This document shows positions 108-58,301 of a stretch of 64,000 nucleotides of DNA, in pieces. The DNA is taken from positions 12,799,453 to 12,863,452 of the forward strand of contig NC_087084.1 of the NCBI RefSeq assembly GCF_026151205.1, written 5' to 3'. Made by a program: the position numbers and the translations under genes. The DNA comes from Bolinopsis microptera. Lineage: Eukaryota > Ctenophora > Tentaculata > Lobata > Bolinopsidae. Each line of letters begins with the position of its first letter. The stretch's first letter is position 1. The notes below the pieces were generated by a model. The model made no database searches. It was not told the DNA's origin and saw nothing but the letters and a program-made list of their open reading frames with translations.

Positions 108-224
108 GGATAATGGCCATACTCGGTTGAATACATCCATCTCGTTCGATCTGGGAAGTTAAGCATGCAGGCCGGGTTATTACTTGGATGGGTGACCGCT
201 GGGAATTACCGGTGCGTTTTCTTT
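108..224 (+). rRNA. 5S rRNA, copy 1 (reference description)
   Basis: 5S rRNA of the large ribosomal subunit, transcribed by RNA polymerase III. The family is recognised from the eukaryotic 5S core: GAATACACC, CTCGTTCGATCTGGGAAG, TTAAGCAACTGCAGG (A-box region) and TTAGTACTTGGATGGGTGAC (C-box region). In the consensus of the array, GGATACGGC at the 5' end pairs with GCCGTATCC at the 3' end, giving the closing helix, and a run of four T follows as terminator. The consensus is 118 nt to the end of that helix. In this copy the 5' arm reads GGATAATGG and the 3' end GTGCGTTTTC, changes typical of the noise in the window. Promoter elements are internal, so no upstream promoter is expected. Confidence 0.95.
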
Positions 225-630
225 AGCAAATGATTTGTTAATTTCCTCATTTTTTGAGAGGGTGACCTCCTTTTTGGGGTAACGATGCCCTAAAATTGGC
301 TCCCCCCATTTCATCTGATTGGCCGGCCAACCTGAGGAAGAGGTCGGAACAGTGTCAGAGCACTGTGATGTAGTGTGTGCAGCATCGAGCTGCATCGCCA
401 AACAGTACCATTACTATCCCTTTTAGGTTGGCTAATGGGAAAGCATTAGGGCAACTGAGATGTCAGGTGACCACTTTTGCGTTTAAATCATGCTACTTGT
501 GACCTCACGTGTCTCATTACTTGCCGACTCTGGGCGGTTGCAGGAAATATTCTACCATGATCGAGCAAGGAAAGGGAAATGAGCTAGGTGACTATAAGTA
601 GGCTTGGGACACTCATTGGGCAGTTTTAAT

Positions 631-752
631 ACTTTCAACACTATATATAACAAATAATTTGACAGGTAAGATTAAGTTCCAATGTGTTAGCTGGTTTCTC
701 TCGGAGACCAGGACTTCACATCTTTTGGGAAGCCTTCCACAAGGGAAGGGCT
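631..752 (+). ncRNA. Candidate spliced-leader (SL) RNA, copy 1 (reference description)
   Basis: Second gene-like block of every unit. Array consensus, 5' to 3': AT-rich leader from ACTTTCAACAC to AATAATTTGAG; splice donor GTAAGATTAAG; stem-loop with arms CTGG(T)TCTC and GAGACCAG around a TCCG tetraloop; single-stranded ACUUCACAUCUUUUGG with an Sm-like site; terminal stem-loop with arms AGCCTTCC and GGAGGGCT around ACAA. The part after the donor is 83 nt, close to the intron-like part of nematode SL RNAs. Donor, hairpin, Sm site, hairpin is the layout of SL RNAs that donate a capped leader by trans-splicing. The true 5' end is unknown: I anchor the start on ACTTTC, but a TATA-like CATATAAG about 70 nt before the donor suggests it is some 10 nt further up. 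Donor here at 666. An unidentified Sm-class snRNA or a cis-intron donor are the alternatives. Confidence 0.7.
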
Positions 753-989
753 CTAATAAACGATGCAATAATAAAGATAACAGTGGCTCCGGTATTGTTA
801 TCCCGACCAGCCAGCTCCGTGAGTCAGTCCTCTTAGGGGTGGGCTTAAAATGGTTTCTGTGTTCCAAACAAAAAGTAAAGCCAGCAATGTTGTTACAATC
901 AAAGTGCTAATCGCCAGCCATTAAACTAATATTTGCAGGAACTGAGGAAATTAATTATTAATGTAGTGGCCGTAATTTCATAACTTTTA

Positions 990-6870: not shown

Positions 6871-7102
6871 TATTAAACGATGCAATAATAGATGATAAAC
6901 AGAGCTCCGGTATTGGTATCCCGACTGCCAGCTCCGAGTCATGGGTCCTCTTAGCATGGTTTTGTGATTCACAACCAAAAAGTAGGCCAGCAATGATGTA
7001 TACAATTCAAAGTGCTAATCGCAAAGCCATATAAAATCTAATATTTGCAGGAACTGAGGAATTTATTTTTTTAATTGTAGTGGCCGTAATTCTTAAACTT
7101 TC

Positions 7103-7222
7103 GGATTCGGCCATACTCGGTGGAATAACCCCATCTCGTTCGATCTTGGGAAGTTTGTGCAATGAGGCGGGTTAGTACTTGGATGGGTGACGCCTGGGGA
7201 TTTCCCGGTGCCGTATCCTTTT
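7103..7222 (+). rRNA. 5S rRNA, copy 9
   Basis: 120 nt. The A-box region is degraded (AAGTTTGTGCAATGAGG); both ends are clear. Confidence 0.95.
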
Positions 7223-7637
7223 GCAATTGATTTGTTAATTTCCTCATTTTTTGAGAGGGTGACCTCTTTTTGTTGGGTAACGTGACCCCTAAAATGGCCC
7301 CCCTTTTCATTGAATGGCCGGCAAACTCGAGAAGAGGTTTCGGAACAGTGTTCGTGTGCAATGTGATGTAGTGTGTGCAGCATCGAGCTGCATCTCCAAC
7401 ACGGCCATAGACATCCCTTTGATAGTGGCTAAATGGGAAAGCCTTTATGGGCAACATGAGATGGTAGGTGACCACTTGGGCGTTAATTCATGCTATCTTG
7501 TGACCTCACGTGTCTCATTACTTGCGCTTCTGGAGGGTTAGCAAGAAATATTCTACAGTATCCGAGCAAGGTAAAGAGCTAGGTTGACATATATAAGTAG
7601 CCTCGGGTCTTGGGCAACTCAATGGGCAGGTTTTAAT

Positions 7638-7748
7638 ACTTTCAACATATATATACAATTAATTTGAGGTAAGATTAAGTTCCAATGTGTAACTGGTTCT
7701 CTCGGAGACCAGACTTCCTTCTTTTGGTAAGCCTTCTCAAGGAGGGCT
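7638..7748 (+). ncRNA. Candidate SL RNA, copy 9
   Basis: Donor GTAAG at 7669; Sm-like site reduced to TTCTTTTGG. Confidence 0.7.
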
Positions 7749-7969
7749 CTAATAAACGATGCAATAATAAAGAATAAACATGTGCTCCGGTATTGTATCC
7801 CGACAGCCAGCTCCGAGTCATGTCCTCTTAGCATGGTTTAGTGATCACAACCAAAATTAGCCAGCTTGTTGTTACTATCCAAAGTGCTAATCGCCAGCCA
7901 TAAACACTAATATTTGCAGGGAACTGAGGAATTTATTATTAAAGGTAGGTGGCGTAATTTCATACTTTC

Positions 7970-8088
7970 GGATACGGCCATACTCGGTTGAATACACCCC
8001 ATCTCGTTCGATCTGGGAAGGTAGCAACTGCAGGCCGGGTTAGACTTTGATGGGGATACCGGCCTGGAATTCCGTGCCGTATCCTTTT
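7970..8088 (+). rRNA. 5S rRNA, copy 10
   Basis: 119 nt. Arms intact; C-box region reads GACTTTGATGGGGATACC. Confidence 0.95.
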
Positions 8089-8502
8089 GCAACATGATTT
8101 GTTAATTTCCTCATTTTTGGAGAGGGTGACCCTCTTTTTGCGGTAACGTGGGTCCCCCTTATAAATGGCCCCCCCCATTTCATCTGAATGCGGCCAAACC
8201 TGAGAAGAGGTCGGAACAGTGTCAAGAGCACTGTGATGTTGGTGTGTGCAGGCATCGAGCTGCATCTCCAACACGGTCAATTACATCCCTTTTAAGGTGG
8301 CCTATGGAGGCCATTCAAGGGCAACATTGAGATGGTCAGGTGACACTCTTTGGCGTTTTTAAATCATGCTTATCTTGTGACCTCACGTGTCTCATTACTT
8401 GACGCTCGGAGGGTAGCAAGTAATATTCTACAGATCCGAGCATGGAAAAGAGCTTGGTTGACATATAAGTAGGCCTGGGACCACTCACATGGCAGTTTTA
8501 AT

Positions 8503-8621
8503 ACTTTTCAACATACTTATAACATATAATTTGAACGTAAGTATTAAGTTCCAATGTTGTAAATGGTTCTCTCGGTGACCAGACTTCCACATCTATTGGT
8601 AAGCCTTCCACAGGAGGGCCT
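8503..8621 (+). ncRNA. Candidate SL RNA, copy 10
   Basis: Donor GTAAG at 8537 after TTTGAAC; Sm-like site ATCTATTGG. Confidence 0.68.
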
Positions 8622-8839
8622 AATTAAACGATGCAATAATAAAGATAAACAGAGGCTCCCGGTTTTGTATCCCACAGCTTCTCCGAGTCTTGTCCTCTTA
8701 GCCATGGTTATGTGATACACAACCTAAAAAGTAGCAGCATGTTGTTTTCAATCAAGTGCTAATCGACAGCCATAAAACTTATATTTGCAGGAACTGAGGA
8801 ATTATTATTAAATGTAGTGGCCGTAATTTCTTAACTTTC

Positions 8840-8961
8840 GGATTCGGCCATACTCGGGTTGTCTACACCCCATCTCGTTCGATCTGGGAAGTTAAGCACT
8901 GCAGCCGGGTTAGTACTTGGTATGGGTGACCGCCTGGGAATTCCCGGTGCCGTATCCTTTT
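8840..8961 (+). rRNA. 5S rRNA, copy 11
   Basis: 122 nt. Close to consensus, with GGATTCGG as the 5' arm. Confidence 0.95.
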
Positions 8962-9359
8962 GCAAATGATTGTTAAATTCCTCATTTTTGAGAGGGTGAC
9001 CCTTTTGGGTTAACTGGGAACCTAAAATGGCTCCCCCCATTTCATTTGAATGGACGGCCAAACCTGAGTAAGAGGTCGGGAACAGTGGCCAGTTGCACTT
9101 TGATGTAGTGTGTGCAGCATTGAGCTGCATCTCCAACACGTCCATTTACCATACCCTTTTAAGGTGCAATGGGAAAAGCCATTATGGGCAACATGTGATG
9201 GTCAGGTGGTCACCACTTTGGCGTGAAATCATGCTATTTGTGACTACGTGTCTCATTACTGCCGCTCTGGAGGGTAGCAAGGAATTTCTACAGTTCCGAG
9301 CATGGAAAGAGCTAGGTTGACATATAGTAGCCTGGGACCACTCATTGGGCAGTTTTAAT

Positions 9360-9479
9360 ACTTTCAAACACTACTATTTAACAAATAATTTGAGGGTAAG
9401 ATTAAGTTCCAATGTGTAACTGGTTCTCTCGGAGACCAGACTTCACATCTTCTGGTAAGCCTTCCACAAGGAGGTGCCT
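9360..9479 (+). ncRNA. Candidate SL RNA, copy 11
   Basis: Donor GTAAG at 9396 after TTTGAGG; first hairpin intact; ATCTTCTGG. Confidence 0.7.
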
Positions 9480-9701
9480 AATAAACGAGTGCAATATAAA
9501 GATAAACAGAGCTCCCGGTATTGTATCCCGACAGCCAGCTCCGAGTCATGTCCTCTTAGCTTGGTTTTGTGATCACAAACTCAAAAAGTAGCCAGCAATG
9601 TTGTTACAATCAAGAGCTAATCGCCAGCCTTTAAAACTAATATTAGCAGGCAACATGTGGAATTAACTTATTAATGTAGTGGCCGTAAGTTCATAACTGT
9701 C

Positions 9702-9823
9702 GATTACGGCCATACTCGGTTGAATACACCCCATCTCGTTCGATTGGGAAGTTATGCAAAATGCAGGCCGGGTTTAGTACTTTGGATGGGTGACCGCTGG
9801 GATTTCCCGGTGCCGTTTCCTTT
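9702..9823 (+). rRNA. 5S rRNA, copy 12
   Basis: 122 nt. 5' arm reads GATTACGG with one G missing. Confidence 0.94.
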
Positions 9824-10234
9824 GCTATGATTTGTTAATTTCCTCTTTTTTGAGAGGGTGACCCTTTTTTGTGGTAACGTGACCCCTAAATTGGCCCCCC
9901 CATTTCATTATCTGAATGGCCGGCCCAACCTGAGAAGAGGTTTCGGAACAGTGTCAAAAGAGCACTGTGATGTAGTGTTGTGCAGCAATCGAGCTGCATC
10001 TCAACCCGTCCAATTACATTCCCTTTTAAGGTGGCTAATGGAAAGCCATTATGGGCAACATGAAGATGGTCAGGTGACCACTTTGGCGTAAATCATGCTA
10101 TCTTGTGACTCACGTGCTCATTACTTGCCGCTTGGAGGGTAGCAAGGAATTATTCTTCAGAATCGAGCAAGGTATGAGCTTAGGGTGACATATAAGTAGG
10201 GCCTCGGGACCCACTCAATGGGCAGTCTTTTAAT

Positions 10235-10356
10235 ACTTTCAACCACTACTTTAACACAATAATTTTTGAGGTATGATTAAGTTCCAATGTGTACCACTGG
10301 TTCTCTCGGAGACCAAAGAACTTCTCATCTTTTTGTAAAGCTTCCACAGGAGGGCT
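10235..10356 (+). ncRNA. Candidate SL RNA, copy 12
   Basis: Donor GTATG at 10271 after TTTTTGAG; Sm-like region ATCTTTTTG. Confidence 0.7.
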
Positions 10357-10582
10357 CTAATAAACGATGCAATAATAAAGATAAACAGAGACTCCGGTCC
10401 TTGTATCCCGACAAGCCAGCTCCGAGTCATGTCCTCCTTAGCATGGTTTTGTGATCACAACCAAAAAGTAGCCAGCAATGTTGTTGATAATCAAGAAGTG
10501 ATAATCGCCAGCCATAAAACGTATATTTGCAGGAAATGTGGAATAATTATTAAATTGTAGTGGCCGTAATTTCATAACTTTC

Positions 10583-10711
10583 GGATACGGCACAATATAC
10601 TCGGTTGAATACACCCCATCTCGTTACGATTGGCGGATGTTAAGCAACTGCAGGCCGGGTTGTACTTGGATGGAGTTGACCGCCTTGGGAATTCCGGTGC
10701 CGTATCCTTTT
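10583..10711 (+). rRNA. 5S rRNA, copy 13
   Basis: 129 nt. Extra bases give CACAATATACTCGG after the 5' arm. Confidence 0.95.
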
Positions 10712-11116
10712 GCAAATGATTTGTTAATTTCCTCATTTTTTTGAGAGGGTGACCCTTTTTTGGGTAACCGTGACCCTAAAATGGCCCCCCATTTTCATCT
10801 GAATGGCAGGCCAACCTTGAGAGAAGGATCGGAACAGTGTCAAGAGAGGAATGTGATGTAGTGTGTGCAGCCACGGCTGCTCATCTCCAAACGTCCCCAA
10901 TTACATCCCTTTTAGGTGGCTAATGGGAAAGCCATTATGGGCAACTGAGATGGTCAGGTGACCACTTTGGCGTTAAATCTGCTATCTTGTGACCTCTCGT
11001 GTCTCATTACTTGCCGCTCTGGAGGGTAGCCATAGGATATATTCTACTGATCCGAGCAAGGAAAGAGCTAGGTTGACATATATTATGAGGCCTGGACCAC
11101 TCATGGCAGTTTGAAT

Positions 11117-11232
11117 ACTTTCAACACTATTATAACAAATAAATTGAGGGGGAAGATTAAGTTCCAATGTGTAACTGGTTCTCTCCGGAGACCAGACTTC
11201 ACACTTTTGGTAAGCCTTCCACAGGGAGGGCT
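11117..11232 (+). ncRNA. Candidate SL RNA, copy 13 (donor GT lost)
   Basis: TTGAGGGGGAAG replaces TTGAGGTAAG, so no GT remains at the junction near 11150. Hairpins are kept. Read as a base-call error or a broken copy. Confidence 0.62.
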
Positions 11233-11449
11233 CTAATAAACGATGCAATATAAGATAAACAGAGTCCCGTGTATTGTATCCAGACACCAGCTCCGAAGTC
11301 ATGTCCTCTTAGCCGGGTTTTTGGTGATCACAACCAAAAAGTAGCCAGCATGTTGTTACAATCTAAGTGGCTATTCGCAGCCATTAAACTATATTTGCGG
11401 AAACTGAGGAATTAAGTATTTATATGTAGTGGCGTAATTTCAAACTTTC

Positions 11450-11574
11450 GGTTACGGCCGTACTCGGTTGAATACACCCCATCTCGTTCGATCTGGGAAG
11501 TTAAGCAAACTGCGCCGGAGTTAGTACTTGGATGGGTGACCGCCTTGGGAATTCCCTGGTGCCGTTCTCCTTTT
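11450..11574 (+). rRNA. 5S rRNA, copy 14
   Basis: 125 nt. 5' arm GGTTACGGCC, 3' arm CCGTTCTCC, then TTTT. Confidence 0.95.
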
Positions 11575-11997
11575 GGCAATGATGTGTTAATTTCCTCATT
11601 GTTTGAGAGGGTGACCTTTTTTGGGTACCGTGACCCCTTAAAATGGCCCCCCCCATTTCATCTTCTGAATGGCCGGCCCATTATACCTGTGAAGAGGTCG
11701 GTTACAGTGTCAAAGAGGCACCTGTTATGTAGTGTGTGCAGCATCGTGCTGCATCTCCAAAACGTCCAATTTACATCCCTTTTAAGGTTGGTAATGGGAA
11801 GCCATTATGGCAACCATTGAGATGGTACAGGTGACCACTTTGGCGTTAAATTCATGCTATCTTGGACCTCACGTGTCTCATTACTTGCCACGCTCTGGAG
11901 TGGTAGCAAGGAAATATTTACAGATCGAGCTCAAGGAAAGTGCCTAGGTTGGGGACATATTATAAGTAGGCTGGGACCATCAATGGGCAGTTTTAAT

Positions 11998-12118
11998 ACT
12001 TTCTACACTTACTAATTAACAAATTAATTTGAGGTTAAGATTAAGTTCCAAGTGTAACGGGTTCTCTACCGGAGAACCAGACTTCACATCTTTTGGTAAG
12101 CCTTCCACAAGGAGGGCT
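11998..12118 (+). ncRNA. Candidate SL RNA, copy 14
   Basis: Donor GTTAAG at 12034; ATCTTTTGGTAAG and full terminal stem-loop are intact. Confidence 0.7.
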
Positions 12119-12341
12119 CTATATTAAAACGATGCAATAATAAGATAAACAGAGCCTCCCGGTATTGATCCCGACAGCCAGCTCCGAGATTCATGTTCCT
12201 CTTAGCATGGTTTTGTGTTAACATACTAAAAGTAGCCGCAATGTTTGTTACAATAAAGTGCTATGCGCCAGCCATAAAACTTGTTGCAGGAACTGAGGAA
12301 TTAATTTTTAAATTGATAAGTGGCGTAATTTCATAACTTTC

Positions 12342-12463
12342 GGATCGGCATACTTCGGTTGAATACACCCCATCTCGTTCGATCTGGGTGAGTTATGCAA
12401 CTGCAGGCCGGGTTCAGTACTTGGATGGGTGACCGACTGGGATTTCCGGTTGCCGTATCTTTT
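12342..12463 (+). rRNA. 5S rRNA, copy 15
   Basis: 122 nt. 5' arm shortened to GGATCGGC; C-box TACTTGGATGGGTGACC is intact. Confidence 0.95.
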
Positions 12464-12862
12464 GCAAATGATTTGTTAATTCTCTTTTTGTGAGGGTGAC
12501 CCTTTTTTGGGGTACGTGACCCTAAATGCCCCCCCATTTCATTGAATGGCAGGCCAAACCTGAGAAGTGTCCCGGAATCAGTGTCAAGAGCACTGTGTGT
12601 TTGTGTGTTGCAGCATCGAGCTGCATCTCCAACACGTCAATTACATTCCTTGTAAGGTGGCTAATGGGAAAGCCATTATGGGCAAATGAAGATGGTCAGG
12701 ATTCGTGACACTTTGGCGATAATTCCTGCTACTTGTGATCTCTAACGTGTCCATTACTTCGCTCTGGAGTGGTTGCAGGAAATCTTTCTATGATCCGATA
12801 GCAAGGAAAAGAGCTAGGTGACTATAAGTAGGCCTGCGGACCATTCATGGGGCAGTTTTATT

Positions 12863-12978
12863 ACTTTCAAACATACTATATAACAATAAATTTGGGTAAG
12901 ATTAAGTTCAAATGTGTTACTGGTTCTCTCCCGGAGACCAGACTTCACTTATGTTGGAAGCCTTCCACAAGGAGGGCT
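12863..12978 (+). ncRNA. Candidate SL RNA, copy 15
   Basis: Donor GTAAG at 12896 after TTTGG; Sm-like region degraded to TTATGTTGG. Confidence 0.67.
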
Positions 12979-13204
12979 CTAATAAACGATGCAATAATTA
13001 AGGATAAAAACAGAGCGCCGGTATGTATCCCGACCGCCAGGCTCCGAGTCATGTCTATTTGCCATGGTTTTGTGATCACAACCAAAAAAGTACGCCAGCA
13101 ATGTTGGTACAATCAAAGTGCTAATCGCCTTCCATTTAAAACTAATATTTGCAGGGAACTGTGGAATTAATTATTAATGTAGTGGCGTATTTTCATTAAC
13201 TTTC

Positions 13205-13329
13205 GGATTTCGGCCACTACTAGTTGAATTCGCCCCATCTCGTTCGATCTGGGAAGGTTTAAGCAACTGCAGGCGGGTTAGTACTGGTTGCGGTGACCGG
13301 CCTGGGAATCCCGGTTGCCGTATCCTTTT
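13205..13329 (+). rRNA. 5S rRNA, copy 16
   Basis: 125 nt. 5' arm GGATTTCGG; GCCGTATCCTTTT at the 3' end. Confidence 0.95.
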
Positions 13330-13743
13330 GCAAATGATTTGTTAATTTCCTCCATTTTTTGAGAGGGTGACCCTTTTTAGGGTAACGTGACCTAAAATTG
13401 GCCCCCCCATTTCATCTGGAATGGCCGGCCAAACCTGGAGGAAGAGGTCGGTAACAGTGTCAAGAGCACTGTGTATGTGTGTGTGCAGCAGCGTGCTGGC
13501 ATCTCCTACACGTCAATTTACATCCCTTTTAAGGTGGCTAATGGGTAAGCCATTTATGGGGCAACATGAGGATGGTCAGGTGACACTTTGGCGTAAATAC
13601 ATTGCTTTACTTTGTGACCTCACGGTGTCTCTTTACATTGCCGCACTGGAGGGTAGCAGGGAATATTCTACTGATTCGAGCAAGGGAAAGAGCCTAGGTT
13701 GACAGATATGTAGGCCTGGGACCACTCAATTGGGCAGTTGTTT

Positions 13744-13861
13744 ACTTTCATAACACTACTTTTTAACAAATAATTGAGGTATGATTAAGGTCCAATGTGT
13801 ATCTGCGTTCTCCCGGAGACCAGACTTCAATCTTTTGTTGCCTTCCACAAGGAGGGGGGCT
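13744..13861 (+). ncRNA. Candidate SL RNA, copy 16
   Basis: Donor GTATG at 13779; extra G residues in the terminal arm (GGAGGGGGGCT). Confidence 0.68.
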
Positions 13862-14080
13862 CTTACTATACAGAATAATAAAAGATAACAGAGTCCCGGT
13901 ATTGTATCACCGCAGCCAGCTACGAGTCATGTCCTCTTAGCATTGGTTTTGTGTTCACAACCAAAAAGTAGCCAGCAATGTTGTTTACAATCATAGTGCT
14001 AATCGCCAGCTCATAATACTAATATTTGCAGGAACAGGTAATTAATTTATTAAATGTAGTGGCCGTAATTCATAACTTTC

Positions 14081-14203
14081 GGATACGGCCTTACTCGGTT
14101 GAATACACCCATCTCGTTACGATCTGGGAAGTTAAGCAACTGCAGGCCGGGTTAGTACTTGGAAAGGGTGACCGGCCGGGAATTCCCGGTGCCGTATCCT
14201 TTT
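14081..14203 (+). rRNA. 5S rRNA, copy 17
   Basis: 123 nt. One of the cleanest copies: both helix arms, A-box core and T4 are intact. Confidence 0.96.
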
Positions 14204-14607
14204 GCCAAATGATTTGTTAATTTGCTATTTTTTGAGAGCGGTGACCCTTTTTTGGTAACGTGACCCCTAAATATGGCCCCCCATTTTCATCGGAATGGCG
14301 GCCAAACCTGGAGAGAGGTCGGATACAGTGTCAGAGACACTTGTGATGTAGTGTGTGCTAGCATCGAGCTGCTTCTCCAAACACGTCCATTCATCCCTTT
14401 TAAGGTGCTAATGGGAAAGCCTTTATTGGGCAACTTGAGATGGTCTCTGGTGACCACTTTGCGTTAAATCAGGCTATTTGTGACCTCACGTGTATATTAC
14501 TTGCCGTCTGGTGGGTTGCAAGGATAATATTATACAGATCCGAGCAAGGAAAGAGCTAGGTTGACATATAAGTAGGCCTGGCGACCACTTCAATGGGCAG
14601 TTGTTAT

Positions 14608-14719
14608 ACTTCAACAATACTATTGTACAATGAATTTGAGGTAGATTTAAGTTCAATGTGTATCTGGTTCTCTCCGGAGACCAGACTTCACATTCTTTTG
14701 TAAGCCTTCACAGGAGGCT
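14608..14719 (+). ncRNA. Candidate SL RNA, copy 17
   Basis: Donor GTAG at 14641 after ATTTGAG; first hairpin with TCCG loop intact. Confidence 0.7.
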
Positions 14720-14942
14720 CTAATAAAACGATGAATAATAAAGATACAGAGGCCCCGGTTTTGTTATTCCGACAGCCAGAGCTTCCGAGTCATGTCTCCC
14801 TTAGCATGGTTTTGTGATCACTACCAATAAAGTAGCCAGCAATGTGGTTACAATCAAAGGTAATCGCAGCCATAAAACTAATATTTGCAGGATGGAGGAA
14901 TTAATTATTATATGTAGTGGGCCGTAATTTCTATATACTGTC

Positions 14943-15072
14943 GTGATACGGCCATACTCGGCTTGAATTACACCCCATCTCGTTCGAACTCTGGGAGTTA
15001 GCAACTGCAGGCCGCACGGTTAGTACTTGGATGGGTGACAGCTCCTGGGAATTCCCGGTTGCCGTATCCTTT
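14943..15072 (+). rRNA. 5S rRNA, copy 18
   Basis: 130 nt. 5' arm GTGATACGG; several single inserted bases. Confidence 0.94.
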
Positions 15073-15494
15073 GCAAATTGATTTTGTTAATGTTTCCTCA
15101 TTTTTTGATGAGGGTGACACTTTTTTGGAGTATAACGTGGACCCCTTAATGGCCCCCCCCATTTATCTGAATGGCCGGCCAAACCTGAGATGAAGGTCGG
15201 AACGGTGCAAGAGAACTGTGATCGTAGTGTGGGCAGCATCGAAGCTGCATCTCTACAAGTCCAATTACATCCTTTTTAAGGTGGCTAAGGGGAAAAGCCC
15301 ATTATGGGCAATACATGTTAATGATGGTCAGGTGGACCACTTTGGCGTTTTAATCTGCTATCTTGTGGACCTCACGTGGTTATTACTTGCCGCTCTGGAG
15401 GGTAGCACGGGAAATATTCTACAGGATCCGAGCATGGATAAGAGCTAGGTTGACATCTAAGTAGGCCTGGGACACTCAAGGAGGCAGTTTTAAT

Positions 15495-15614
15495 ACTTTC
15501 CAACACTAATCTTTGACAAATAATTTGAGGTAAGATTAAGTATCCAATGTGTATACGGGTTTCTCTCGGAGACCAGATTACTTCCCTTTTGGTATGCCTT
15601 CCACATGGAGGGCT
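15495..15614 (+). ncRNA. Candidate SL RNA, copy 18
   Basis: Donor GTAAG at 15530 after TAATTTGAG; GGAGACCAG arm intact. Confidence 0.7.
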
Positions 15615-15840
15615 CTTATAAACGATTAATAATAAAGATAAACAGAGCTCCCGGTTTTGGATCCCGACAAGCCAGCTCGAGTCATGTCTCTTAGCCATGG
15701 TTTTGTGTTCACAACCAAAAAATGTAGCCAGCATTGTTGTTTCAGTCCATGTTGCTAATCGCCAGCAATATAACTAATATTTGCAGGAAACTGAGGAATA
15801 ATTTTATTATAATTTGTAGTGGCCGTAATTTCTAACTTTC

Positions 15841-15967
15841 GGATACGGGCCTACTCGGTTGAATACCCCCCCATCTCGTTCGATCCTGCGGAAGCTAAGC
15901 AACTGCTCAGGCCGGGTGTTAGGACTGGATGGGTGACCGCCTGGGTATTCCGGTGCCGTATTCTTTT
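15841..15967 (+). rRNA. 5S rRNA, copy 19
   Basis: 127 nt. A-box reads AGCTAAGCAACTGC, otherwise near consensus. Confidence 0.95.
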
Positions 15968-16380
15968 GCAAATTGATTTGTTTAAATTTCCTTTTTTTTG
16001 AGAGGGTGTCCCTTTTTTGGTAACGTGACCCCTAAAATGGCCCCCCCATTTCATCTGATGGTCCGGCCAATACTGAGAAGAGGTCGGTACAGTGTCAAGG
16101 CACTGTGATGTAGTGTGTGCAGGCATCGAGCTGCAATCTCCAACACGTCCTAATTACATCCCCTTTTAAGGGTGGCTTATAGGGAAAGCCATTATGGGCA
16201 ACATGAGATGGTCGGGTGACCACTTTGCGTTAAATCATGCTATTTGTGGACCCTCACGTGTCTCATTTACTTGCCGCTCCGGATGGTGCAAGGTAAATAT
16301 TCTACAGATCGACCAAGGAAAGGAGCTTGGTTGACATCATAAGTAGGCCTGGGACCATACATCAATGGGGGCTGTTTTTA

Positions 16381-16501
16381 ATTCTTTCCAACTCTACTAT
16401 TAACAAAATAATTGAGGTAAGATTAGTTCCATGTGTAAAATCTTGGTTCCTCCGGAGACCAGAACTTCACTTCTTTTGGTTAGCCTTCCTCAAGGAGGGC
16501 T
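16381..16501 (+). ncRNA. Candidate SL RNA, copy 19
   Basis: Donor GTAAG at 16417 after TTGAG; TCTTTTGG Sm-like core. Confidence 0.7.
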
Positions 16502-16740
16502 CTTAATAAACGTTGCATTAATAAAGATATAAACAGAGCTCCCGGTATTGTATCCCGATCAGGCCAGCTTCGGTGGTCATGCTCATCCGTAGCATGGTTT
16601 TGTGATCACATACCTAAATGTAGCCAGCACTGTTGTTATCAATCAAAGTGCTAATCGCCAGCCTATAAAAACTATTATCTTGCAGGAAAACTGAGGAATT
16701 AACATTATTCACTGTAGTGGCCGTAATTTCATAACTTTCG

Positions 16741-16860
16741 GGATACGGGCCATACTCGGTTGAATACACCCCATCTCGTTATGATCTGGAAAGTTAAGCA
16801 ACTGCGGACGGGTGTACTTGGATGGGTGACCGCCTGGGAATTCCGGTGCCGTATCCTTTT
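16741..16860 (+). rRNA. 5S rRNA, copy 20
   Basis: 120 nt. Arms and T4 intact; GCAGGCCGG is reduced to GCGGACGG. Confidence 0.95.
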
Positions 16861-17272
16861 GCAAAACTGATTTGTTTATTCCTTCATTTTTGTTGAGAGG
16901 GGGACCCTTTTTGGGTAAATCGTGACCCCTTAAAATGGCCCACCCATTTCATCTGAATGGACGGCCAAACCTGAGATGAGGTCGGAACTGTGTCAAGTAG
17001 CCACTGTGATGTTAGCTGTGTGCAGATCGAGCTGCATCTCCAACACGTCCTACTTACATCACCTTTTTAGGTTGGCTAAGGGAAGCCATTATGGGCAAAA
17101 TGAGATGGTCGGGGACCACTTTGGCGTGAAATATGCTATCTTGTGAACTCACGTGTCTCATTACTTGCCGCTCTCTGGAGGGTAGCTAGGATATTTTTTA
17201 GACAGATCAGTGCAGGAAAGAGCTAGGTTGAATATAAGTAGGCCTGGCGACACAATCAATGGGCAGTTTAAT

Positions 17273-17393
17273 ACTTTCAACACTACTATATAACACAAAT
17301 AATTTGAGGTATGATTAAGGCCAATGGTGTAACTGGTTCTCTCCGGCGACCAGACTGCAACATCTTTTGGTAGCTCTTCCACAAGGTGGGCAT
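17273..17393 (+). ncRNA. Candidate SL RNA, copy 20
   Basis: Donor GTATG at 17309; ATCTTTTGG intact; terminal stem noisy. Confidence 0.69.
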
Positions 17394-17623
17394 CTAATTA
17401 AAACGATGCAATAATTAAGTAAACTGAGACTCCGGGTTTGTATCCCGACAGCCGCTCCGAGTCATGTCTCGTAGCATGGTTCTTGTGATCACAATACCTC
17501 TAAAAAGTAGCCAGCAATGTTGTTACATTCAAGTGCTAAATGCACTGCCTTAAACAAACTAATATTTGCCAGGAACTGAGGAATTAATTATTTAATGTAG
17601 TGGCCGTATTTTCATAAACTTTC

Positions 17624-17754
17624 GGATACGGACATACTAGGTGGTCATCACACCCGCCATTCGTTCGATCTGGGTAGTTAAAGCAACTGCAGGCCGGGGT
17701 TTGTACTTTTATGGGTGACGCCTGGGATTCCCGGTGCCCTCGTCTTCACTTTTT
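17624..17754 (+). rRNA. 5S rRNA, copy 21
   Basis: 131 nt. 3' arm disturbed (GCCCTCGTCTTCAC) before TTTTT. Confidence 0.94.
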
Positions 17755-18163
17755 GCAAATGTCTTTTGTTAATTTCCTACATTTTTGAGAGGGTGACCAT
17801 TTTGGTAACGTGACCCTAACATTGGCCCACCCATTTCATCTGATATGGCGGCCAAACCTGAGAAGAGGTCGGATCGTGTACTAAGTGCACTGTGATGTTG
17901 TTGTGTGCTCGCATCGAGCTGCATCTCCAAACTCATACAAATTACATCCCTTTTAAGGAGGCTAATGGGAAAGCCATTATGGGCACATGAGTGGTCAGGA
18001 TGAAACACTTTGGCGTTATAATCATTGCTATCTTGTGACCTCACGTGTCGCATTTCTTGCCGCTTCTGGAGCGGTAGCAAGGGAATATATTCTACAGATC
18101 CGTGCAGGAAAGAGCTAGGTGCTTATAAGTAGGCCTAGGGACAACTCAATGGGCAGTTTTCAT

Positions 18164-18282
18164 ACTTTCAACACTACGATATAACAAATATTTGAGTAAG
18201 ATTATGTTCAATTGTGTATACTGGTTCTTCTCCCGGAGACCAGTTCACTATCTTGTGGTAAGCCATTCCACAAGGGAGGGCT
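18164..18282 (+). ncRNA. Candidate SL RNA, copy 21
   Basis: Donor GTAAG at 18196 directly after TTTGA; Sm-like region TATCTTGTGG. Confidence 0.68.
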
Positions 18283-18505
18283 CTAATAAACGATGGATTA
18301 ATAAGATAAACAGAGCTCCCGGTATTGTATCACCGACAGCAGCTCCGTGTCTATGTCCTCTTGCTTGGTTTTGTGATCACAACCAAAAAGTAGCCAGCTT
18401 GTTGTTTCAAATGCATGTGCTAATCGCAGCCTTAAAACTAATATTTGCAGGAACTGAGGAAGTAATTATTAATTGTTAGTGGCCCGTAATTTCAATATAC
18501 CTTTC

Positions 18506-18632
18506 GGTTACGGCCATATCGTTGAATACACCCATCTCGTTTAGAATCTGGGAGTTAAGCAACTGCAGGACGGGTTAGTACATTGGAATGGGTGACCGCT
18601 GGGAATTCCCCGCATGGGGGTCCGTATCTTTT
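18506..18632 (+). rRNA. 5S rRNA, copy 22
   Basis: 127 nt. CGCATGGGGG is inserted in the last helix before TCCGTATC. Confidence 0.94.
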
Positions 18633-19048
18633 GAACTAACTTGAGTTGTTTTTTCCTATTTTTGGAGGGGTCACCCTTTTTTGGCGTAACGTGACCCCTA
18701 AAATGGCCCCCCCCTGTTTCATCTGAATGGCCGGCCAAACCTGTGAAGAGGTCGGAACGTGTCAAGAGCACTGTGTTGGTTGTGTGGGCAGCACTCGAGC
18801 TGCTTCCCCAACACGTCCAATGACATCCCTTTTAAAGGTGGCTTATGGGAAGGCATTATGGCAACTATGATGATGGTCAGGTGACCACCTTTGGCGTTTT
18901 ATTCATGCTATTTTGTGACCTCACGTGTTCTCATTTACTTGCAGCTCTGGTGGGTTGCAAGGAAATATGCTACAGATCGAGCAAGGAAAGAGCTGAGGGT
19001 GACATATAAGTAGGCAATGGGACCTACCTCTATGGGCAGTTTGTATAT

Positions 19049-19165
19049 ACTTCAACACGAAGATATATCATTTAATTTGTGGTAAGGATTTAGTTCAATG
19101 TGTGTAAAACTGGTTCTCTCGGTGACCAGACTGACATCTTTTGGTAAGCCTTCACAAGGAGGGCT
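19049..19165 (+). ncRNA. Candidate SL RNA, copy 22
   Basis: Donor GTAAG at 19082 after TTTGTG; ATCTTTTGGTAAG intact. Confidence 0.69.
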
Positions 19166-19390
19166 CTAATAAAGATGCAATATAACGACTAAACAGAAGC
19201 TCCTGGTATTGTCATCCCGACAGCCAGCTCGAGTCATGTCTTCCTTAGCATGGCTTTGTGGCACCAACCATAAAGTATGCCAGCCCATATGTTGTTACAT
19301 TCAAGTTTGCTAATCGCAAGCCGTTAAAACTAATATTTGCAGGAAGGAGGAACTTAATTATTAAATGTGTGGCCGTATTTCATAACTTTC

Positions 19391-19505
19391 GGATCGGCCT
19401 TACTCGGTGAATACCCCCATCATCGTTCGTTTGGAAGTTAAGCACACTGCAGGCGGGTTAGTACTTGGATGGGTGACCGCTAGGGAATTCGGTGCGTATC
19501 CTTTT
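19391..19505 (+). rRNA. 5S rRNA, copy 23
   Basis: 115 nt, the shortest copy, through scattered single deletions rather than one gap. Confidence 0.94.
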
Positions 19506-19914
19506 GCAAATGATTTGTTAATTTCCCTCATTTTTTGGATGAGGGTGACCCTTTTTTGGGTAACGTGAACCCTTAAAAGTCCCCCCAGTTTCATTGAATG
19601 GCCGGCCAAACCTGAGAAGATGGTCCGGAAACAGTGTCTAAGCAGCACTGTGGATGTAGTGTGTGCAGCATCGAGAGGCATCTCCAACACGTCCAATTAC
19701 CATCCCTTTTAAGGTGGCTATTGGAATAGCCATTATGGGCACATGAGTTGGTCAGGTGACCACTTTGGCCGTTAAATCATGCTATCTTGTGACCTCACGT
19801 GTCGCCATTACTTCGACGCTCTGGTGGGTAGCAAGGAAATATCTACAGATCGAGAAGGAAAGAGCTAGGTTGAACTTATAAGTAGGCCTGGGACACTCAA
19901 TGGGCAGTTTTAAT

Positions 19915-20036
19915 TCTTTCAACACCTATATATAACAAATATTTGAGGTTTAAAGATTAGTTCCAATGTGTAAATGGTTCTCTCCGGCGACCAAGACTTC
20001 AACATCTTTTTGGTAAGCCTTCCACATGGAAGGGCT
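19915..20036 (+). ncRNA. Candidate SL RNA, copy 23
   Basis: Donor GTTTAAAG at 19948; ATCTTTTTGG, one T longer than most. Confidence 0.69.
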
Positions 20037-58242: not shown

Positions 58243-58301
58243 TTTTCCCCCCCCCCCCCCCCCCCCCCCCCCCCACCCCCCCCCCCCCCCCCTTTTTTTT
58301 T
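58243..58301 (+). repeat. T4-C46-T9 homopolymer tract
   Basis: TTTT, then 46 positions that are all C except one A at 58275, then nine T, inserted exactly between GTGTGTG and CAGCAT of the spacer hairpin cluster. It is the largest homopolymer in the window and private to unit 66, which also has two other low-complexity inserts. Confidence 0.9.

Follow-up and report, generated by a model that had tools for sequence, protein, structure and literature searches.

Ctenophores have been argued to be the sister group of all other animals (PMC10232365; this and the other papers are cited here from excerpts). Their spliced leader (SL) was described from transcripts of Hormiphora californensis (Schultz 2021; PMC8527503), where shared first exons of 35-48 bp, more than 90% identical to the 44-nt sequence GAGTTTCAAACTTTTCAACACTACTTTAAACAAATTAATTTGAG, stood on 56% of the Iso-Seq reads, and where a AATTTGAG motif was common to Hormiphora and Mnemiopsis. 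The same study cites earlier EST work on ctenophore SLs (Derelle 2010) and gives 718 leader copies for the Hormiphora genome and 491 for that of Mnemiopsis, genes and relics not being separated in the available excerpts. Linkage of SL genes to 5S rRNA genes, which an earlier note on the present DNA had mentioned for several unrelated lineages, is in print for many organisms, among them copepods and Caenorhabditis briggsae, whose SL gene lies within or clustered with the 5S repeats, as in the array studied here.

The leader of Bolinopsis microptera proved to be similar to that of H. californensis. Aligned with the Hormiphora SL in print, its 43 nt agreed in 39 of 46 columns, a likeness reached by none of 5000 shuffles, and it had the same AATTTGAG end, with a length of 43 nt against 35-48 bp there. 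The suggestion that the SL might be undescribed is therefore not supported. The excerpts of PMC8527503 describe neither the RNA gene nor its 5S linkage, and both are given here. In the literature surveyed, no report of a ctenophore SL RNA gene, of its linkage to 5S or of leader relics was found; the linkage and the relics may already be in print. The leader was not found in a viral contig collection searched with two patterns or in another genome-contig collection searched with one. Moreover, a check against Rfam, as the earlier note had proposed, gave no SL1 or SL2 match, either at the gathering score over the whole window or at E <= 5 in positions 7000-20000. The leaders of copepods and C. 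briggsae are not known to be related to the present one.

The window, that is, the whole stretch of 64,000 nucleotides analysed, was built as a tandem array: a unit of about 880 bp, in which a single 5S rRNA gene is paired with a single SL RNA gene, occurred 72 times. A BLAST search of the whole window with one 5S gene gave 72 5S starts spaced 862-960 bp apart; in an Rfam search, 53 matches reached the 5S cut-off. The covariance model R1, trained on SL gene copies of the same genome from outside the window, found 72 SL genes, all on the forward strand, the last being truncated by the window end. The SL gene began 511-603 bp after the 5S start, and exactly one followed each 5S gene (72/72). The claim that every 5S repeat carries a second small RNA gene of SL layout was thus borne out in all units; for the first unit the gene itself stood, and its span was changed from 631-752 to 622-760 by the covariance model. 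The features were as follows:

109-64000, forward strand: array of 72 units of 5S and SL genes, error-rich (BLAST, covariance model and error counts)
109-222, forward strand: 5S rRNA gene of unit 1, one of 72 (Rfam RF00001, 55.9 bits)
622-760, forward strand: SL RNA gene of unit 1, one of 72 (covariance model R1, 118.9 bits, E 2.7e-21)
622-665, forward strand: leader exon of unit 1, with errors; clean copies have 43 nt, AGTTTTAATACTTTCAACACTACTATATAACAAATAATTTGAG (clean genes, and 91 relics for the 5' border)
666-670, forward strand: GTAAG splice donor (invariant in five gene variants; the relics stop here)
691-711, forward strand: hairpin 1 of 8 bp with a one-base bulge and a UCCG or UCAG loop (folds; paired cells 100% in five variants)
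720-728, forward strand: Sm-like site AUCUUUUGG, in the lone gene L118 AUAUUUUGG (alignment)
731-752, forward strand: terminal hairpin 2 of 8 bp, with the variant loops ACAA, UUCA, UCUA and ACUA (paired cells 97.5%)
11108-11240, forward strand: best-scoring SL gene of the window (covariance model R1, 141.8 bits)

We have little doubt that this is a tandem SL RNA/5S array of a ctenophore, whose leader is trans-spliced to many RNAs, some of which have been reverse-transcribed and inserted into the genome as relics.

The sequence of the array itself was of low quality. Per 100 nt, the 5S genes of the window carried 3.3 substitutions, 9.4 insertions and 2.8 deletions, and the 71 complete SL genes 4.5, 11.8 and 2.4, respectively; none of the 72 5S genes and none of the 71 SL genes was perfect. 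With the same script, 15 clean 5S-linked SL copies gave 0.3 substitutions, 1.5 insertions and 0.05 deletions per 100 nt, and 8 of the 15 were perfect. Since even the clean copies gave 1.5 insertions, an end effect accounts for some of the insertions counted. The complete lack of perfect copies in the window might suggest that the array is degenerate and non-functional. This is very unlikely, because insertions dominate the differences, 5S and SL genes are affected alike, and clean copies of both are present on the same contig and elsewhere. Unpolished long reads typically show insertion-rich error. PacBio CLR stands beside HiFi and Iso-Seq among the libraries used across the three species of PMC10232365, and the gaps of B. 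microptera were closed with TGS-GapCloser, which also argues against decay. We infer that the stretch is a long-read gap fill. In so error-rich a window, without a perfect copy, the differences from unit to unit are probably mostly error, and the true SL gene sequence is that of the clean copies elsewhere in the genome. A run of 46 C at 58247-58292 probably reflects the same poor sequence quality.

In the clean copies, all the parts named by the earlier note were recovered: the leader end TTTGAG, GTAAG, an 8-bp hairpin with a UCCG loop, AUCUUUUGG and an 8-bp hairpin with an ACAA loop. That all units share them held for the consensus but not for the individual window copies, and the stem of hairpin 1 had one bulged base in clean copies. 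Five gene variants aligned gap-free over 134 columns, of which columns 1-62 (the exon and 19 nt) were invariant, and in 5/5 the exon was directly followed by the GU donor (TTTGAG/GTAAG). The copies of contigs C5 and C3 differed at five positions, four of them in the two tetraloops and one beyond hairpin 2; their spacers and flanks, unlike the gene, had diverged. Folding of two clean variants gave z values of -2.68 and -1.83, with 2/200 and 7/200 shuffles folding as well. Of the 80 hairpin cells in the five variants 98.8% were paired, no pair was changed on both sides, and shuffles equalled the observed value; covariation says nothing here because these cells hardly vary. The Sm-like motif, a putative Sm-binding site, sits between the two folded hairpins. 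The predicted SL RNA would measure about 125-135 nt: after the 43-nt exon and the GU donor would come an intron half in which the Sm-like site is flanked by the two hairpins. This length, as well as Sm binding, cap donation and present activity, is predicted from DNA.

Further SL copies were present on C5, in two regions of C13 and on C3, together with single genes on C2 and C1. A pattern of the exon-intron junction tolerating up to 3 mismatches, which missed most of the error-rich window units, gave 83 sites in the genome. Two were single, and 81 lay in four array regions: 37 on C3 (13.51-13.55 Mb, with a usual spacing of 591 bp), 12 on C5, and 24 and 8 on C13. The C3 array, examined over 7.1 kb with 11 SL genes, showed no 5S gene there, and the C13 array at 15.24 Mb included units without 5S, indicating that the linkage to 5S is optional. 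The lone divergent SL gene L118 (C1:19149826-19149861), with the Sm-like site AUAUUUUGG, has a U2 snRNA gene (C1:19147707) as a neighbour at about 2 kb.

Most of the leader matches in the genome are relics and not genes. A search for the leader core with a next base other than G gave 1,588 sites at up to 2 mismatches, and the reversed-pattern control gave 0. These sites overlap with the 1,017 of another leader search and must not be added to them, since one of the tolerated mismatches may hit the base after the core. For this reason, and because some 250 array units (estimated from array lengths, not counted) may be included, about 1,340 relics is the conservative figure. The genome thus seems to hold over a thousand intronless leader relics.

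By the 100 nt that follow the leader, 110 relics from 94 stretches fell into 34 groups. The 17 groups with at least 2 members held 93 of the 110, and some single groups were pieces or relatives of others. The sample was not random: among the matches listed, it took 88 of 100 on C1 and C2 and 19 of 100 from a second list. Before counting, matches close to stretch ends were removed, as were duplicates sharing the same flanks and the array and parent-gene loci; from a set of 91 relics, L037 was removed as well. A looser grouping of those 91 had given 22 groups, at least two families being merged, and was replaced by the stricter one. As the sampled relics are mostly in repeated families, they need not represent a thousand independent splicing events.

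The relics also marked the 5' end of the exon. Upstream of CAACAC, the 91 relics matched the gene at 80-99% over 12 bases, then at 47% and 42%, at 8-12% over the next four bases, and at 11-47% beyond, like AT-rich background. The similarity stops at AGTTTT, which indicates that the copied RNA begins there and that the exon has 43 nt. It therefore starts 9 nt farther upstream than the earlier note had placed it.

The same leader preceded all 34 downstream groups, including one retrocopy of a host gene. At C1:14,433,157, the sequence behind the leader of the relic was an open frame without introns that belonged to the Pfam EMC6 family (E 2.9e-18) and that we take to be RAB5IF-like. The parent gene at C1:10.21 Mb consisted of four blocks of 81, 108, 132 and 277 nt, 92.8-98.8% identical to the copy. 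Its first block began after CATCAG with TTAACAGGAAACATG, without the leader, and in the copy the leader was joined to TTAACAGAAAACATG. Furthermore, some elements were joined to the leader at two alternative sites, and the inner junction followed AG in the longer copy in 5/5 informative cases, which came from 4 of the 34 groups. These junctions were CTAG/GGTCATC, AG/GACCCC and, three times in related elements, TTCAG/GGATG; two of the four groups share the TTCAG/GG start. Among the distinct junction pairs, 11/12 ended in AG; three sets in which the inner junction is itself preceded by a leader were set aside, as was a nested site with TT at its end. The leader, too, ends in AG, so that an AG junction could in any single case also have arisen by template switching at a match of two bases. 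The AG acceptors and the leader-tagged copies are evidence, internal to the genome, of trans-splicing followed by reverse transcription.

Two leader-tagged elements from the groups with alternative junctions encoded reverse transcriptase, with E values of 1.9e-29 and 5.4e-37, so that at least these two are non-LTR retrotransposons; in the second, the enzyme lies in an open frame of 1,141 aa after a first frame of 750 aa. Among three element ORF starts scanned, two gave a sub-threshold match to a PHD-type finger (E 8.1e-5 and 7.2e-4) and one gave none. The leader-tagged non-LTR retrotransposon L141 (C4:13000000-13005980) matched the 2OG-Fe(II) oxygenase family PF13532 in its first frame (E 1.1e-14), where a GDSL family match was below the cut-off.

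The leader might instead be native to a mobile element and have been captured by the SL gene, the relics then being copies of the element. This would suit the 93 sampled relics in groups of two or more, and it is nevertheless very improbable: the same leader stands before 34 groups (a few of them pieces or relatives of one another), it is found on a spliced host-gene copy and is absent at the parent gene, and it is joined to single elements at two alternative sites. The SL RNA reading of the earlier note is right, and these genomic signs of leader transfer to other RNAs strengthen it.

Several relics were arranged in pairs or rows. Stacked leaders were found by the exact pattern at 1 site, within a head-to-head relic pair. 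Five such pairs were observed: C1:3731159-3731236 (L047), C1:7307504-7307591 (L058), C1:15606567-15606661 (L069), C1:16284610-16284696 (L070) and C1:18035176-18035265 (L071). Their 5' ends face each other tens of bases apart, and each pair is a palindrome with a single repeat family on its two sides; in the stretches of L058, L069, L070 and L071, matches to miRNA families were below the gathering scores. Tandem leader relics, spaced 101-204 bp and often 181 bp apart, were seen at C2:1844702-1845297 (L080), C1:24530365-24530635 (L079) and C2:5123580-5124253, and in L079 and L080 each leader was followed by TCAGGGAAGCGGC or a one-base variant. In short relic families (L040, L042, L050, L060), a TGAA-stem-GAAA-like motif came straight after the leader, which by eye we found reminiscent of a hammerhead core. 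A hammerhead core in the commonest relic family was not supported, as Rfam found none in 20 stretches at E <= 1, including L040, L042 and L060.

The regions upstream of the SL genes were compared with those of snRNA genes. Sixteen U1, U2, U4 and U5 genes had the upstream consensus TTCAAACACAAGGAAATATTTTAT, starting at -58 to -62, from which an ungapped PWM was built. The U1, U2, U4 and U5 genes of L014-L034 share CAAACACAAGGAAATATT at about -58, likely the ctenophore PSE. The SL loci C3, L117 and L118 have CAAACTAGGAAA, by eye at -56, and the 5S-linked SL genes have GCAAGGAAA upstream; the ungapped PWM supported neither. Its best scores in SL upstream regions were -7.6 to -15.4, compared with 17.6-35.5 for the snRNA genes, 87-455 of 1000 shuffles being as good, and p was 0.05-0.30 at the expected promoter position. 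An snRNA-type promoter was thus not supported, and a gapped resemblance of the SL upstream region to the snRNA element is kept as a lead.

It is extremely unlikely that the gene is an ordinary or SmY-like snRNA linked to 5S, with a transcript starting past GTAAG and the leader as its promoter: the hairpin-Sm-hairpin order, two matches to SmY within SL genes below its gathering score (25.5 and 22.6 bits against 39) and a best PWM match in the leader in 4/4 units scanned (score -2.9) would agree with it, but 49-61 of 300 shuffles did as well as that PWM match, which is not significant, ctenophore mRNAs carry the leader according to PMC8527503, and it is invariant in the five variants and precedes other sequences, ending exactly at the donor.

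As an SL RNA, the transcript would donate its 5' exon, and the spliceosome would attach it at AG acceptors close to the 5' ends of many RNAs, as the genomic products suggest. The acceptors would include RNAs of non-LTR retrotransposons, and leader-bearing retrotransposon and host RNAs would then be reverse-transcribed and inserted, giving the relics. Both halves of this mechanism occur elsewhere. In Hydra, about 30% of the TE Iso-Seq reads carry an SL (PMC12220107), the material there being RNA, compared with genomic DNA with junctions here. Dinoflagellate genomes contain SL-tagged retroposed mRNAs (PMC6050394), as here. In contrast to those relics, much of the material here is retroelements, and multiple SLs occurred in about 20% of the full-length transcripts analysed in dinoflagellates (PMC6050394), against one exact stacked site here.

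The dispersed relics are the most interesting addition to the SL/5S array. Possibly, though this is a tentative view, trans-spliced RNAs have been recycled into the ctenophore genome on a large scale, as in dinoflagellates, with non-LTR retrotransposons and short repeats spreading together with the leader and the leader serving as its own renewable acceptor. Within it, the relics are well supported and the renewable acceptor is speculation: the leader ends in TTTGAG, which resembles a 3' splice site, so an inserted copy may act as its own acceptor and regain the leader in each cycle. Such a cycle would fit the near absence of stacked leaders, which dead-on-arrival copies would fit equally well.

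The RNA gene behind the known ctenophore leader is hereby supplied, together with its copies, some linked to 5S and others not, and an estimate of the exon 5' end drawn from the genome. Moreover, the relics are of consequence for gene models with a spurious first exon in common and for the leader-copy counts given in the excerpts of PMC8527503. They also record which RNAs were trans-spliced, and where.
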